Shown: positions 24,112-58,171 of the stretch, one piece after another | Numbering within the stretch: position 1 is the stretch's first letter | Layout of the letters: each line of letters starts with the position of its first letter | Origin: Nonomuraea cavernae | GTDB taxonomy: Bacteria > Actinomycetota > Actinomycetes > Streptosporangiales > Streptosporangiaceae | Assembly: GCF_014646355.1 (NCBI RefSeq) | Contig: NZ_BMNH01000019.1 | Location: forward strand, 64,126 to 128,125 | Length of the DNA stretch: 64,000 nt | Direction: 5' to 3' | Notes under the pieces: model-generated | What the model was told of the DNA's origin: nothing | The model's database searches: none | The model's input: only the letters and a program-made list of their open reading frames with translations | Position numbers and translations under genes: made by a program

Positions 24112-25980
24112 ATGTCGATGATGGGAGGGGGTTTCGGCCCCCATGTGATGGCGTCGCTGCGACGCGACGATTCGGTGACCAAGCAGCGGCTCACACCGGG
24201 CACGGTGCGGCGCATCGCGCGTTACGCGAGGCCGCACACCCGGCAGATCTGCGCGTTTCTCCTGCTCGTGGTCGCGGGCGCGGTCATCGTGGTCGCCAAC
24301 CCGCTGCTGATGAAGGCGATCATCGACGACGGCATCCTGCCGAAGCGCGGCGACGTGGTGATCGGCCTGGCGGCGGCGATCGCGGCGCTGGCGGTCGTCG
24401 ACGCCGGCCTCACGCTGGCGCAGCGCTGGTTCTCCGCCCGCATCGGCGAAGGGCTCATCTACGACCTGCGCACCGAGGTGTTCGACCACGTGCAGCGGAT
24501 GCCCGTGGCCTTCTTCATGCGCGCGCAGACCGGCGCCCTGGTCTCCCGGCTCAACACCGACGTCATCGGCGCGCAGCGGGCCCTGACCAGCACTCTGTCG
24601 TCGGTGGTGGCCAACGTCATCAGCCTGGTGCTCGTGCTCGGCGCGATGCTGGTGCTGTCGTGGCAGGTGACGCTGGCCGCGCTGGTGCTGCTGCCGATCT
24701 TCGTCATCCCGGCCAAGCTGGTGGGGCGGCGCATGTCGGTGCTCACCCGCGAGCAGATGCAGCTCGACGCCGAGATGAGCTCGGTCACCACCGAGCGGTT
24801 CAACGTGGCCGGCGCGATGGTCGCCAAGCTCTACGGCAGGCCCGACGACGACGCGGCCGTGTTCGGCGCCCGGGCCGCCCGGGTGCGCGACGTGGGCGTC
24901 ACGGTCGGAATGTACGGAACGGTGTTCAGGGTCGCGCTCGGCCTGGTCGCGGCGCTGGCCACCGCGCTGGTCTACGGGATCGGCGGCGTGCTGTCGGTCA
25001 ACGGCGTGTTCGAGCTGGGCACGCTGGTCGCCCTGGCGGCGCTGCTCATGCGTCTGTACGGCCCGCTCACCTCACTGTCCAACGTGCACGTCGACGTGAT
25101 GACCGCGCTGGTCAGCTTCGACCGGGTCTTCGAGATCCTCGACCTGAAGCCGATGGTCGCCGAGCGGCCCGGCGCCGAGCCGGTGCCCGAGGGCCCGGTG
25201 ACGATCGAGTTCGACGACGTCCACTTCCGCTACCCGTCGGCCGAGGAGGTCTCGCTGGCCTCCCTGGAGTCGGTCGCCAGGCAGGACACCGGCCCCTCGC
25301 AGCCGGTGCTCAGGGGCGTCTCCTTCACCGCCAAGCCGGGGCAGCTGATCGCCCTGGTCGGCCCCTCGGGGGCGGGCAAGACCACGATCACCTCGCTGGT
25401 GTCGCGGCTCTACGACGTCAATGAGGGGGCGGTCCGCGTCAACGGGCTCGACGTGCGCGACGCGACGCTCGCGTCGCTGCGCGACACCGTCGGCGTGGTC
25501 ATGCAGGATCCCCATCTCTACCACGACACGATCGAGGCCAACCTGCGCTACGCGCGTCCCGGGGCGAGCGAGGAGGAGCTGTGGGAGGCGCTGAGGGCCG
25601 CGCAGATCGGCGACCTGATCGAGTCGCTGCCCGACGGGCTGGAGACCGTGGTGGGCGACCGCGGTTACCGGCTGTCCGGCGGTGAGAAGCAGCGGCTGGC
25701 TCTGGCCCGGCTGCTGCTCAAGGCGCCGCGCGTGGTCGTGCTCGACGAGGCCACCGCGCACCTCGACTCCGAGTCGGAGGCGGCCGTGCAGCGGGCGCTG
25801 AAGACCGCCCTGCAGGGCCGCACCTCGCTGGTCATCGCGCACCGGCTGTCGACGATCCGGGAGGCCGACGAGATCCTCGTGGTCCAGGACGGCCGCATCG
25901 CCGAGCGGGGCCGGCACGACGAGCTGCTCCGGCGCGGCGGGCTCTACGCCGAGCTCTACCGCACGCAGTTCAGCCGGTGA
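24112..25980 (+). CDS. ABC exporter, fused permease and ATPase (MsbA/MDR type)
   Basis: The 622-residue half-transporter has six membrane helices in residues 35-330 and a C-terminal ABC domain with Walker A GPSGAGKTT (about 419-427), signature LSGGEKQRLALARLL, Walker B VVVLDEATAHLDSE and the H-loop VIAHRLSTI. An unusual insertion of about 20 residues (EVSLASLESVARQDTGPSQP) follows the A-loop FRYPSAE. It probably works as a homodimer exporting lipid or drug. ATG 24112 has GGAGGAGG nine bases upstream. Confidence 0.9.
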   Translation: MSMMGGGFGPHVMASLRRDDSVTKQRLTPGTVRRIARYARPHTRQICAFLLLVVAGAVIVVANPLLMKAIIDDGILPKRGDVVIGLAAAIAALAVVDAGLTLAQRWFSARIGEGLIYDLRTEVFDHVQRMPVAFFMRAQTGALVSRLNTDVIGAQRALTSTLSSVVANVISLVLVLGAMLVLSWQVTLAALVLLPIFVIPAKLVGRRMSVLTREQMQLDAEMSSVTTERFNVAGAMVAKLYGRPDDDAAVFGARAARVRDVGVTVGMYGTVFRVALGLVAALATALVYGIGGVLSVNGVFELGTLVALAALLMRLYGPLTSLSNVHVDVMTALVSFDRVFEILDLKPMVAERPGAEPVPEGPVTIEFDDVHFRYPSAEEVSLASLESVARQDTGPSQPVLRGVSFTAKPGQLIALVGPSGAGKTTITSLVSRLYDVNEGAVRVNGLDVRDATLASLRDTVGVVMQDPHLYHDTIEANLRYARPGASEEELWEALRAAQIGDLIESLPDGLETVVGDRGYRLSGGEKQRLALARLLLKAPRVVVLDEATAHLDSESEAAVQRALKTALQGRTSLVIAHRLSTIREADEILVVQDGRIAERGRHDELLRRGGLYAELYRTQFSR

Positions 25981-46815: not shown

Positions 46816-46857
46816 CCGTTTCGCGGCAGGCGGCGACCTGTGCCGGGCGGTGAGCGC

Positions 46858-47658
46858 GTGAACGGCGGCTACGACGCGGTGATCCTGGCGGGCGGCCTGG
46901 CCCGCCGGCTGGGCGGGGTCGACAAGCCCGGCCTGGCCGTGGGCGGCCGGGCGATGGTCGAGCGGGTCGTGGCGGCCGTCCCGGACGCCCGGCGGGTCGT
47001 CGTGGTCGGGCCCGAGCGCGGGCTGACGGGGGTGGTGTTCGCCCGGGAGGACCCTCCGGGAGCGGGACCGGTGCCCGCGCTGCGGGCCGGGCTGAGCGAG
47101 GTCACCGCGCCCTGGGTGCTGTTGCTGGCCGCCGACCTGCCGTTCCTGCTGCCCGCCCACCTGACGCCCCTGCTGGCGGCTCGCTCCTGCGGGACGGGCG
47201 GCGTCGTGGCCGTCGACGGCGACGGGCGCGAGCAGTGGCTGCTGGGCGTGTGGGAGGTCGCGCCGCTGCGCGCGGCGCTGGACGGCTACACCGGGCGGTC
47301 GCTGCGCGGCCTGCTCGGGCCCCTGGTCGCGGGCCGGGTGCCGTTGCCCGGCCGGGCCTCGTTCGACTGCGACACTATGGACGATCTCAAGGAGGCTCAC
47401 ATGAACGTGCTGCACGAGTGGACCGCGCTGGCCTGCCGGGAGCTGGGCATCGACCCCGCCCGCGTCGACCGCGACGCGATCCTCGACCTCACCAAGGAGG
47501 TGGCGCACGGGGTGGCCCGGCCGGCCGCGCCGCTCACCGCCTATCTGCTGGGGCTCGCCGAGGGCGCCGGCACCGCTCCGGAGGACGCCGTGGCCCGGCT
47601 GACGGCTCTGGCCGGCAACTGGGGGCAGGCCACCGCCGAGACACTGACGGACGACTGA
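46858..47658 (+). CDS. MobA-like nucleotidyltransferase fused to DUF6457
   Basis: Residues 1-180 are a molybdenum cofactor guanylyltransferase-like domain with VILAGGLARRLGGVDKPGL and VLLLAADLPFLLPAHL. Residues 182-266 form a DUF6457 domain that in many actinomycetes is a separate gene. A perfect internal site, AAGGAGG (47389-47395) with ATG 47401, could start DUF6457 separately. MobA attaches GMP to molybdopterin. GTG 46858 is preferred because it sits close to the conserved YDAVILAGG; GTG 46840 is the alternative. Confidence 0.83.
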   Translation: MNGGYDAVILAGGLARRLGGVDKPGLAVGGRAMVERVVAAVPDARRVVVVGPERGLTGVVFAREDPPGAGPVPALRAGLSEVTAPWVLLLAADLPFLLPAHLTPLLAARSCGTGGVVAVDGDGREQWLLGVWEVAPLRAALDGYTGRSLRGLLGPLVAGRVPLPGRASFDCDTMDDLKEAHMNVLHEWTALACRELGIDPARVDRDAILDLTKEVAHGVARPAAPLTAYLLGLAEGAGTAPEDAVARLTALAGNWGQATAETLTDD

Positions 47659-47821
47659 CACTCGGGCGAACTCCCGAAGTCAAGCCCTGCGCGAAGCTGA
47701 AGATTTCCTGGGAATTCCGAGCGCGTTGGAGCGTAAACGATTTCGGGAAAGAGGCCCTATCAAACTGAGATCGCCGCTGTCGGACTGATCATCCAAAGAC
47801 AAAGGTTTCCCCAGGAAAGGG
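47659..47821. other. Noncoding gap after mobA-DUF6457
   Basis: No coding frame is convincing here. The stretch is less GC-rich than the genes and has one short hairpin, TTTCC-CCA-GGAAA (about 47803-47816), just before the three hairpins. I see no recognisable promoter in the plus direction. It may be the 3' untranslated part of the moaA-mobA transcript or a 3' extension of the small RNA candidate. Confidence 0.4.
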
Positions 47822-47930
47822 GCGACGCCGGGTGGTTACGGGGGCAAACCACCCGGCGTCGCTTCATCGGCGTTCCGACGGGGGCCCGGAACGCCGGCAC
47901 CAGCACTCCGACGGGGGACCGGAGCGCTTG
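47822..47930 (-). ncRNA. Candidate small RNA with three C-rich-loop hairpins (6C-like)
   Basis: On the minus strand three hairpins follow one another. Stems: 47928-47920 with 47910-47902 (9 bp), 47895-47887 with 47877-47869 (9 bp), and 47862-47847 with 47837-47822 (16 bp, terminator-like). Each loop has exactly nine bases: GTCCCCCGT, GGCCCCCGT and TGCCCCCGT. C-rich hairpin loops define the actinobacterial 6C RNA class, whose loops pair with G-rich ribosome binding sites. Upstream are TTGACG (47967-47962) and TACGCT (47941-47936), placing a start next to the first stem, though the 20-base spacer is long. The plus strand could instead use hairpin 1 as a terminator. Confidence 0.6.
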
Positions 47931-47974
47931 GCTAAAGCGTACACCTACAACCCATGGGATGCGTCAAGACTTAG

Positions 47975-48298
47975 TCACGACCCGATCTCGCGTCGGTGCC
48001 TTGGTATCTCGCTTTGGTTAGCTTCGGGTGTCTGAAAGGTGGGAGGTGGCACGTCCGCGCCCCTCTCATTGGCCCCGATTACGGCTATGTATGGCAAAAA
48101 GACGGCGCCCGCGATGAACAGCAGCCGATAGGGCCACGGCACCGGCACCACCACCGCCAGGATCAGGCAGAGCGTGCGGATCCCCATCTTGATGAGGTAG
48201 CTGATCTCTCGACGGTGGATGTCCGCAGTCAGCGAGGGTCTGGCGTCGGTGACCTGGTGGACGTCCTTCTTGCTGTGCCACCACTTCATACCCTTCAC
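47975..48298 (-). CDS. DUF3099 family small membrane protein
   Basis: The 107-residue protein matches the DUF3099 pattern: ITDARPSLTADIHRREISYLIKMGIRTLCLILAVV followed by two membrane helices (about 40-60 and 62-80) and a polar tail. The GTG start at 48298 has GGAGG six bases upstream; ATG 48289 is the alternative. It is found across actinobacteria and its function is unknown. The small RNA candidate begins 45 bases beyond its stop on the same strand. Confidence 0.83.
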   Translation of the reverse strand: MKGMKWWHSKKDVHQVTDARPSLTADIHRREISYLIKMGIRTLCLILAVVVPVPWPYRLLFIAGAVFLPYIAVIGANERGADVPPPTFQTPEANQSEIPRHRREIGS

Positions 48299-48387
48299 GC
48301 TAGACCTCCGACGGGCGTGCTGTGACCGCCTGCCGGACGGGCGGCGCGAGTCATGCGATCATGGCCTTCTAGTAAGGAGATGGGGAG

Positions 48388-48600
48388 ATGACGGATCGAA
48401 CGTACCGGGTCACCGAGATAGTCGGGACGTCGGGGGAGAGCGTTGACCAGGCCATCCGCAACGGCATCAGGCGCGCCTCCGAGACGCTGCGTCACCTCGA
48501 CTGGTTCGAGGTGACCGAGGTTCGCGGGCACATCGACGCGGGCGAGGTCGCCCACTTCCAGGTGGGCATGAAGGTGGGCTTCCGCCTCGAGGACTCCTGA
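48388..48600 (+). CDS. Dodecin flavoprotein
   Basis: The 70-residue protein has the dodecin fold sequence YRVTEIVGTSGESVDQAIRNGIRRASETLRHLDWFEVTEVRGHI, with the flavin-stacking tryptophan at position 39, and the tail VGMKVGFRLED. Dodecins form 12-mers that store flavins (or CoA) and limit photodamage. ATG 48388 has GGAGATGGGGAG upstream. It is divergent from the DUF3099 gene. Confidence 0.93.
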   Translation: MTDRTYRVTEIVGTSGESVDQAIRNGIRRASETLRHLDWFEVTEVRGHIDAGEVAHFQVGMKVGFRLEDS

Positions 48601-56861: not shown

Positions 56862-57410
56862 ATGCCGGTCTTCGACTACGACCCACCAGAGAGGTTCGTG
56901 GCCGGTGCCCTGGGGCAACCGGGCGCACGGGCGTTCTTTCTGCAGGCCAGAGCCGAGGGCAGACTGACCACGGTCGCGCTGGAGAAGCTTCAGGTCGCCG
57001 CGCTGGCGGGCAGGCTCGACGAGCTGCTCGACGAGGTTTTGCGGCGCAGCGGCGGCACCGCGCACGTGCCCGCCCTCGCGCCCGCCGACCTGTCCGACGA
57101 CGCCCCCCTCGACGTGCCGCTCGCCGAGGACTTCCGGGTCGGCACCATGGCGCTGGCCTGGGACCCCGAGACGTCCCAGGTGGTCATCGAGGCGCAGGAG
57201 ATCATCGACGAGGACGACGTGGAGCCGGAGGAGCCGGCGGTGCTCCGGGTGCGCATCAGCGCCGGGGCCGCGCGGGCGTTCACCCGGAGGGCCCTCGACC
57301 TCGTCGCCGCCGGCCGGCCGCCCTGCCCCCTGTGCGCGCAGCCGCTCGACGCCGAGGGCCACGTGTGCGTCCGGCTCAACGGCTACCGCGGGGGTGAGGT
57401 GGCATCATGA
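56862..57410 (+). CDS. DUF3090 family protein
   Basis: The 182-residue protein matches DUF3090: it starts MPVFDYDPPERFVAGALGQPGARAFFLQA, has an acidic middle (EAQEIIDEDDVEPEEPA) and ends in a zinc-ribbon-like CPLCAQPLDAEGHVC. Such proteins occur in actinobacteria between a phosphatase and a SCO1664-type gene. The function is unknown. Its stop overlaps the next start (ATGA). Confidence 0.9.
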   Translation: MPVFDYDPPERFVAGALGQPGARAFFLQARAEGRLTTVALEKLQVAALAGRLDELLDEVLRRSGGTAHVPALAPADLSDDAPLDVPLAEDFRVGTMALAWDPETSQVVIEAQEIIDEDDVEPEEPAVLRVRISAGAARAFTRRALDLVAAGRPPCPLCAQPLDAEGHVCVRLNGYRGGEVAS

Positions 57411-58171
57411 GCGCCTCGGAGAGCGAGCCCGCCGTCCGGCCGTCATCCCCGTCGGCCATGGAGGCCGACGGGGCCCTCACGCTGCTCCGCGACGGCCGCC
57501 TGGAGGTGGCCGGCCGGCTGGTCGAGGCCACCAACATGACCCTCTACTGCTCGGTCACGCTGGCCGGGCGCACGGCCGCCTGCGTCTACAAGCCCGTACG
57601 CGGCGAGCGCCCCCTGTGGGACTTCCCCGACGGCACCCTGGCCGCCCGTGAGGTGGCGGCGTTCGAGGTGTCCCAGGCGACCGGCTGGCAGATCGTGCCG
57701 CCGACGGTCTACCGTGACGGCCCGTTCGGGCCCGGCATGTGCCAGCTGTGGATCGACACCCAGCGCGAGATCGACCTGACCCGGCTGATCCGCAGCCGCA
57801 ACCCGGTGGTGCGCCGGATGGCGGTCTTCGACGCCGTGGTCAACAACGCCGACCGCAAGGGCGGTCACCTGCTGCCGCTGCCCACCGGCCATGTCTACGG
57901 GGTCGACCACGGCGTCTGCTTCGCCGTCGAGGACAAACTCCGCACCGTGCTCTGGCAGTGGCGGGGCAAGCCGCTGGCGCGTGAGGCCGTGGCCGTGCTC
58001 GCCAAGCTGGAGCGCGACATCGAGTCGGGCGCGCTGGGGCGCAGGCTGCGCGAGCTGCTGTCGCTCGCCGAGGTCGAGGCCACCTGGCACCGGGTCAGGC
58101 GGTTGATCAACACCGGGGTGCATCCGTCCCCGTCCGAGGACTGGCCTGCCATCCCCTGGCCGCCCATCTGA
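57407..58171 (+). CDS. SCO1664 family kinase-like protein
   Basis: The 254-residue protein has kinase-like features of the PI3/4-kinase or HipA type: a conserved lysine in ACVYKPVRGERPLWDFP, a catalytic-loop-like D142-x3-NNADRKGGH154, and a metal-loop-like D167-HG in GVDHGVCF. SCO1664-type proteins sit beside DUF3090 and mshC in many actinomycetes, as here. No substrate is known. ATG 57407 overlaps the DUF3090 stop. Confidence 0.85.
   Translation: MSASESEPAVRPSSPSAMEADGALTLLRDGRLEVAGRLVEATNMTLYCSVTLAGRTAACVYKPVRGERPLWDFPDGTLAAREVAAFEVSQATGWQIVPPTVYRDGPFGPGMCQLWIDTQREIDLTRLIRSRNPVVRRMAVFDAVVNNADRKGGHLLPLPTGHVYGVDHGVCFAVEDKLRTVLWQWRGKPLAREAVAVLAKLERDIESGALGRRLRELLSLAEVEATWHRVRRLINTGVHPSPSEDWPAIPWPPI

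Follow-up and report, generated by a model that had tools for sequence, protein, structure and literature searches.

To our knowledge actinomycetes do not use Hfq, and we know of few trans-acting small RNAs (sRNAs) that are common to several of their families. The system that most resembles the RNA described below is 6C (B11), which in mycobacteria lies beside ssd; Mai and colleagues are said to have found in 2019 that 6C/B11 acts without RNA chaperones. Repetition of one loop motif over several hairpins is also a feature of sponge RNAs of the CsrB/RsmY type, and the loops of CsrB-type RNAs bind CsrA.

According to an excerpt of PMC8388888, 6C is defined by two stem-loops, each with at least six cytosines. 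The mode of action has been described for B11 in Mycobacterium abscessus, where either C loop pairs with G-tracts in 5′ untranslated regions and represses (excerpts of PMC10470900), and in M. marinum, where B11 represses via the C loop of the terminator hairpin (excerpts of PMC12395582). Hairpins with C-rich loops are reported too for the Streptomyces sRNAs scr5583 and scr1434 (excerpt of PMC3765725).

Here we analyze a stretch of 64,000 nucleotides from Nonomuraea cavernae (hereafter the window), which contains a conserved structured RNA that is absent from Rfam 15, is not 6C, and is of an already known general kind. With 6C/B11 it shares an actinobacterial host, hairpins with C loops, and a last hairpin that resembles a terminator. 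Unlike 6C, the loops (CCCCCGU) include a conserved G and U, and the number of C loops varies from one to three. Where 6C (as defined in the excerpt of PMC8388888) has two stem-loops with six or more Cs, the RNA of the window has three hairpins with runs of five. The motif repeated in RNAs of the CsrB/RsmY type is GGA, whereas here it is rich in C.

Results

Three hairpins with a recurrent C-rich loop

Between 47928 and 47822 the minus strand folds into three hairpins with loops of nine nucleotides (Table 1), all of which match the pattern NNCCCCCGU exactly. Coordinates rechecked by script agree with a preliminary description of this DNA, which had reported three hairpins with near-identical C-rich loops on this strand; of the span given there (47822..47967) the hairpins occupy only the part up to 47928, and the remainder (47967-47929) is not hairpin and holds a promoter-like element. 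The predicted minus-strand fold of 47800-47990 has an energy of -97 kcal/mol, compared to a mean of -75.07 for shuffled sequences (z -5.05; none of 200 shuffles equaled it). Stem sequences differ, as had been claimed, though H1 and H2 are akin: the two share a mean identity of 72%, as against 55% and 51% with H3. RNAalifold shows that the first and last loop bases are pairable in H1 and H2 (as G-U, G-C or A-U), and the exposed core of these two loops may thus be seven nucleotides, NCCCCCG. Because these bases can pair, the final U of the loop motif may have a structural role, with CCCCCG as the possible seed.

Table 1. Features of the locus (window coordinates).
Feature	Coordinates	Strand	Description	Basis
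moaA	45769..46815	+	Convergent with the RNA	Pfam
mobA-like gene	46840..47658	+	C-terminal DUF6457; convergent with the RNA	Pfam
Predicted sRNA transcript	47813..47930	-	About 115 nt	5′ end from the -10; 3′ end from H3 plus short tail CCCTTTCCTG
Hairpin H3	47822..47862	-	Perfect 16-bp stem; loop UGCCCCCGU 47846-47838; terminator-like	
Hairpin H2	47868..47896	-	10 bp; loop GGCCCCCGU 47886-47878	Fold and alignments; match of cross-family model R2
Hairpin H1	47902..47928	-	9 bp; loop GUCCCCCGU 47919-47911	Fold and alignments
Promoter-like element	47936..47967	-	TTGAC 47967-47963, 18 nt, GTGTA 47944-47940; TAnnnT-type -10 TACGCT 47941-47936	
Conserved direct repeat	47963..47980	-	TCGTGAC-N4-TCTTGAC, 11-bp period; covers the stop codon of DUF3099 and the -35-like element	
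DUF3099 gene (PF11298)	47975..48298	-	Directly upstream of the RNA, same strand	Pfam, 4.2e-23

Evidence for selection on the structure comes from two alignments, one of 29 sequences (A1) made without a model and one of 40 sequences (A4) fitted to the model. In the former all 1015 stem cells pair, and both sides have changed in 10 of the 35 pairs; in the latter 99.5% of 1399 stem cells pair, and 14 pairs have changed on both sides. The percentage paired, the number of doubly changed pairs and the covariation score of the 40-sequence alignment were each reached by none of 500 shuffles, while the number of further pair types was unremarkable (74 of 500 shuffles were as high). Loops in the same alignment are invariant in 25 of 27 columns, stems in 35 of 70. 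Together the compensatory changes and the invariant loop columns bear out the earlier view that constant loops over variable stems mark a conserved structured RNA. With its compact hairpins and conserved C-rich loops, this RNA matches in structure the general kind of C-loop trans-acting sRNAs. A small protein was considered as well, and was rejected because 4 of the 29 sequences (L118, L121, L122 and L125) carry one-base indels in the H2-H3 interval, which shift any reading frame.

Conservation, distribution and hairpin number

Of the 54 genomes that represent the genus, 53 match the RNA region, one of them being that of the window itself and the others matching at 94-99% identity; the sole genome without a match is 63% complete. 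Absence or erosion of the hairpins in close relatives, which the preliminary description had named as fatal to its case, was thus not observed. Matches extend to 245 of 250 genomes sampled from the family, and the RNA is present in 79 of 80 loci, the lone exception being the 6C locus L001. Named carriers are Nonomuraea (one filed as Actinomadura parvosata), Thermoactinospora, Sinosporangium, Microtetraspora, Sphaerisporangium and Streptosporangium. Over 30 loci of the genus, the segment 47990-47831 is 99-100% identical to the window (100% for 47990-47971, 99% for 47970-47951), a figure that drops to 89% for 47830-47811 and to 46% for 47810-47791; the coding part of DUF3099 gives 70-97% in steps of 20 bases. 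By these profiles the upstream element and the RNA form the most conserved unit, above the DUF3099 gene.

Some observations stand apart from the RNA itself. A block between the RNA and mobA (47750-47731) is 94% identical across the genus, compared to 46-73% in neighboring 20-bp steps, and may be a terminator or a site of the convergent moaA-mobA unit. One Nonomuraea genome has a second and weaker match (G016:C8:296121-296167; 81% over 47 nt of the RNA), possibly a paralogue or a fragment. In the plasmid collection only NZ_LT559118.1 (Nonomuraea gerenzanensis) was matched, and two homologues from other families matched nothing there; this record of 11.85 Mb, with a gene table of 10 features, is filed as a plasmid yet bears the core locus, and looks like a chromosome.

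Distribution beyond the family was assessed with two covariance models, whose E-values are rough; some of the matches had served in building the models. At E 0.01 the three-hairpin model R1 finds a match in 96 of the 394 genomes sampled from the class. The two-hairpin model R2, built from 25 sequences in which 96.1% of 615 cells pair and 15 pairs have changed on both sides, matches 136 of the 394 at E 0.001, with one match each, in 15 of 48 families (f1-f48). The sample is uneven, with 41 genomes from the window's family (f1) and 39 from f18 (presumably Streptomycetaceae), all of which carry the RNA. Missing R2 matches in the other 33 families may reflect loss, or poor sensitivity under stricter filters. 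A sample of the phylum (n = 149) gave 5 matches, all of them within the class.

Hairpin number varies among these loci. A counterpart of H3 is present in all 37 listed loci, with CCCCCGT in 36 and CCCCGT in L162. Among the 33 loci outside f1, an extra run of at least five Cs precedes the 3′ loop in 26 and is lacking in 7; in five of the 26 (L161, L163, L219, L227 and L229) the run, judged by eye, is unlike a hairpin loop. In f18 there are two hairpins, and their C runs measure 5 and 6. Two C-loop hairpins ahead of the 3′ one were seen, again by eye, in none of the 33 loci of other families. Identity to the single 5′ hairpin of other families is 0.76 for H1 (shuffled baseline 0.59) and 0.68 for H2, as against 0.54 and 0.48 to their 3′ hairpin. 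To judge from sequence identity, the extra hairpin in the window's family (H1) probably arose by duplication of the 5′ hairpin, which would be the simplest reading, the alternative being loss elsewhere.

Complements of the loop at gene starts

The preliminary description proposed that the loops could pair with the ribosome binding sites of many mRNAs. Runs of at least five Gs were counted in a sample of 864 kb, in which a simple script called 558 genes. AC precedes the G-run in 3 of 42 cases near starts, compared to 20 of 362 within genes (P = 0.72); for any C the figures are 17 of 42 and 185 of 362, respectively (P = 0.25). The complement is thus not enriched at these starts, and the result lends no support to broad targeting across many mRNAs; the RNA may still pair selectively with a small number of targets. 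Among the 59 genes called in the window, the only full complement (ACGGGGG) near a start belongs to the TldE gene, and this site is kept in none of 37 aligned relatives (49 loci searched). Shorter sites (CGGGGG) lie at -18 of the genes at 24112-25977 and 57407-58168. Any pairing would be shorter than that of 6C, because the loops hold five Cs.

Lack of enrichment at gene starts is also what might be seen if the CCCCCG loops bound an RNA-binding protein, which would be titrated or guided in the manner of CsrA by CsrB-type RNAs. Near-identical repeated loops on variable stems would suit such a role, as would a motif with G and U besides the C run; however, the U can be accounted for if it pairs with the base that opens the loop, and the 7 loci (of 33 outside the window's family) with a five-C run in the 3′ hairpin only are at odds with titration, which usually needs many sites. 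We consider action through a protein unlikely, though it deserves to be taken seriously. Pairing with G-tracts as in B11/6C is, by analogy, the most likely mode of action, because the plan is that of B11 and, as there, the terminator-like hairpin is the part most widely kept.

Gene neighborhood, promoter-like element and strand

A DUF3099 gene is found near the RNA in 49 of 57 homologous loci, and in every one of the 49 it lies upstream on the strand of the RNA, at a distance of 34-378 nt. A moaA gene is found in 37 of the 57, each time downstream and in opposite orientation to the RNA (37 of 37), a count to be read with the flank of 1.5 kb in most loci of f1, which is too short to reach moaA. 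At L165, L211, L214 and L219 there is no moaA despite about 2 kb or more of flank. The association with molybdenum cofactor genes is one of position, and we do not read it as functional.

TTGAC-N18-GTGTA occurs with fixed spacing in all 145 strict-core loci of the same family (genomes being repeated among loci). A further 11 divergent loci of the family fall outside the strict-core pattern: the six inspected by eye have both TTGAC and GTGTA, and another divergent locus, L157, has a first loop with C as its last base. Outside the family, 26 of 33 loci have an extended -10 ([AG]TG[ACT][ACG]AT[AG][AC]T) at a distance of 10-55 nt before the match, compared to a mean of 0.06 of 33 in mononucleotide shuffles and 0 of 1362 control windows, the pattern having been formulated after the sequences had been inspected. 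A generic consensus scan of 47700-48400 reported neither a promoter nor a T-rich terminator. The direct repeat that overlaps the -35-like element is a possible site for an activator of the response-regulator type.

The R1 model scores 142 bits at 47935-47813, by construction, as the window sequence is part of R1. Stem cells of the 40-sequence alignment hold 64 G-U and 2 A-C combinations (manual count), and the minus strand is favored because G-U cells would be mismatches on the opposite strand. An RNA from the plus strand was rejected: the plus-strand R2 match (34.6 bits) is the palindromic H3 read backwards, and the G-U counts favor minus. The G-U pairs, the fixed TTGAC-N18-GTGTA, and conservation of 99-100% that stops at the last hairpin together argue for a separate sRNA, about 115 nt long, on the minus strand; it is from the promoter-like element and H3 that we infer transcription and both transcript ends.

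These same data bear on whether the RNA could instead be the 3′ UTR or terminator region of DUF3099, either acting in cis or processed from the DUF3099 mRNA into an sRNA. Its place after DUF3099 on the same strand (at most 378 nt away in the 49 loci) and the terminator-like H3 would fit. Against this, conserved promoter-like elements lie between the stop codon and the hairpins, and a terminator has no need of two or three invariant loops. Moreover, five genomes from two families (G372, G419, G428 and G437 of f14; G290 of f12) have their single DUF3099 match and the RNA on separate contigs. DUF3099 is present in 375 of 394 class genomes, compared to 136 with the RNA, which argues that DUF3099 is independent of it. 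A 3′ UTR or terminator region of DUF3099 therefore appears decidedly improbable, and we retain the independent sRNA.

Relation to 6C and other known RNAs

The 6C model (RF01066) finds no match in the window at its gathering score of 47 bits, nor in 47600-48200 at E up to 10; the resemblance to 6C that had been suggested thus stands for architecture and fails for membership. The source genome has one 6C (L001, C8:38471-38547; 59.2 bits), upstream of the septum protein gene ssd (TIGR03815), whereas the RNA described here sits between DUF3099 and mobA and not beside ssd: the earlier remark that the locus is unlike that of 6C was correct. A search of 148 class genomes for 6C gave 82 positives at E 0.001, 65 of them over the cut-off. 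In 42 of the 148, 6C and an R2 match occur together (32 with 6C over the cut-off), and inspection places the two at different positions in all 42. On the 6C of the source genome R1 scores 21.4 bits (E 0.012), and R2 finds nothing at E up to 10. Membership in 6C was rejected on this evidence, and the RNA is distinct from 6C. The common layout, in which the last of the C-loop hairpins resembles a terminator, together with the R1 score, might still suggest a divergent 6C that was moved or duplicated; given the silence of RF01066 on this region and of R2 on the real 6C, the coexistence of both RNAs and their different loci, such a derivation is very improbable.

Rfam 15 at gathering score has no match in the window and none in homologous loci from other families (n = 20), and ten weak matches (BjrC80, terC, Pxr, Scr3202, ar7 and five others) are all far under their cut-offs. 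The Streptomyces sRNA Scr3202 (RF02833) is likewise a hairpin with a C-rich loop, but the RNA of the window scores 16.8 bits where 52 are required. Two alphaproteobacterial RNAs have C-rich-loop hairpins in outline – BjrC80 (RF02354; 22.0 bits, 80 needed) and ar7 (RF02342; 16.7 bits, 60 needed) – and belong to another phylum. The sRNAs scr5583 and scr1434, as they appear in the excerpt of PMC3765725, share a C-rich-loop hairpin with this RNA and take their names from other genes.

Chance hairpins or structural DNA repeats of no RNA function, for which one may cite the ease with which hairpins form in sequence of high G+C, have practically nothing left to recommend them in view of a z of -5.05, compensatory changes, the G-U strand asymmetry, loop invariance, and occurrence in 15 families.

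Discussion

Our preferred reading (probability roughly 0.6) is that the locus encodes a trans-acting sRNA of about 115 nt, with its own promoter, which belongs to an actinomycete RNA family other than 6C and uses C-loop seeds that pair with G-tracts. Transcription would start from this promoter immediately after DUF3099, proceed on the minus strand, and be ended by H3. The constant part would be the long 3′ hairpin, doubling as terminator and displaying a CCCCCGU loop, with one 5′ hairpin bearing a similar loop in many lineages and two – apparently by duplication – in the window's family. Each loop would act as a preformed single-stranded seed for G-tracts (CGGGGG) near ribosome binding sites; pairing would lower translation or stability, and several loops would provide more possible contacts.

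In Streptomyces coelicolor the genes at the locus are presumably SCO1820-SCO1821. Among the matches listed for the open-licence literature, none describes an sRNA at DUF3099, moaA or SCO1820-SCO1821; the only paper among them to name SCO1821 is PMC4021200. Six short strings of sequence occur in no open-licence paper text, and supplements of Streptomyces sRNA surveys may list an unnamed transcript.

A broader proposal, to which we give slightly less than even odds, is that this RNA represents an unrecognized sRNA family ancestral to much of the class Actinomycetes, a C-loop regulator second to 6C and acting alongside it, with a distinct seed (CGGGGG), a constant terminator hairpin, and one to three identical loops through hairpin duplication. 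The conserved C-loop RNA is probably an overlooked gene regulator. A single copy, near-invariant loops, one neighborhood in many families and absence from Rfam 15 make it a strong candidate core regulator among hosts rich in antibiotic producers. The series from one to three loops amounts to a natural experiment on loop number, and coexistence with 6C makes the specificity of two C-loop RNAs directly testable in one cell.
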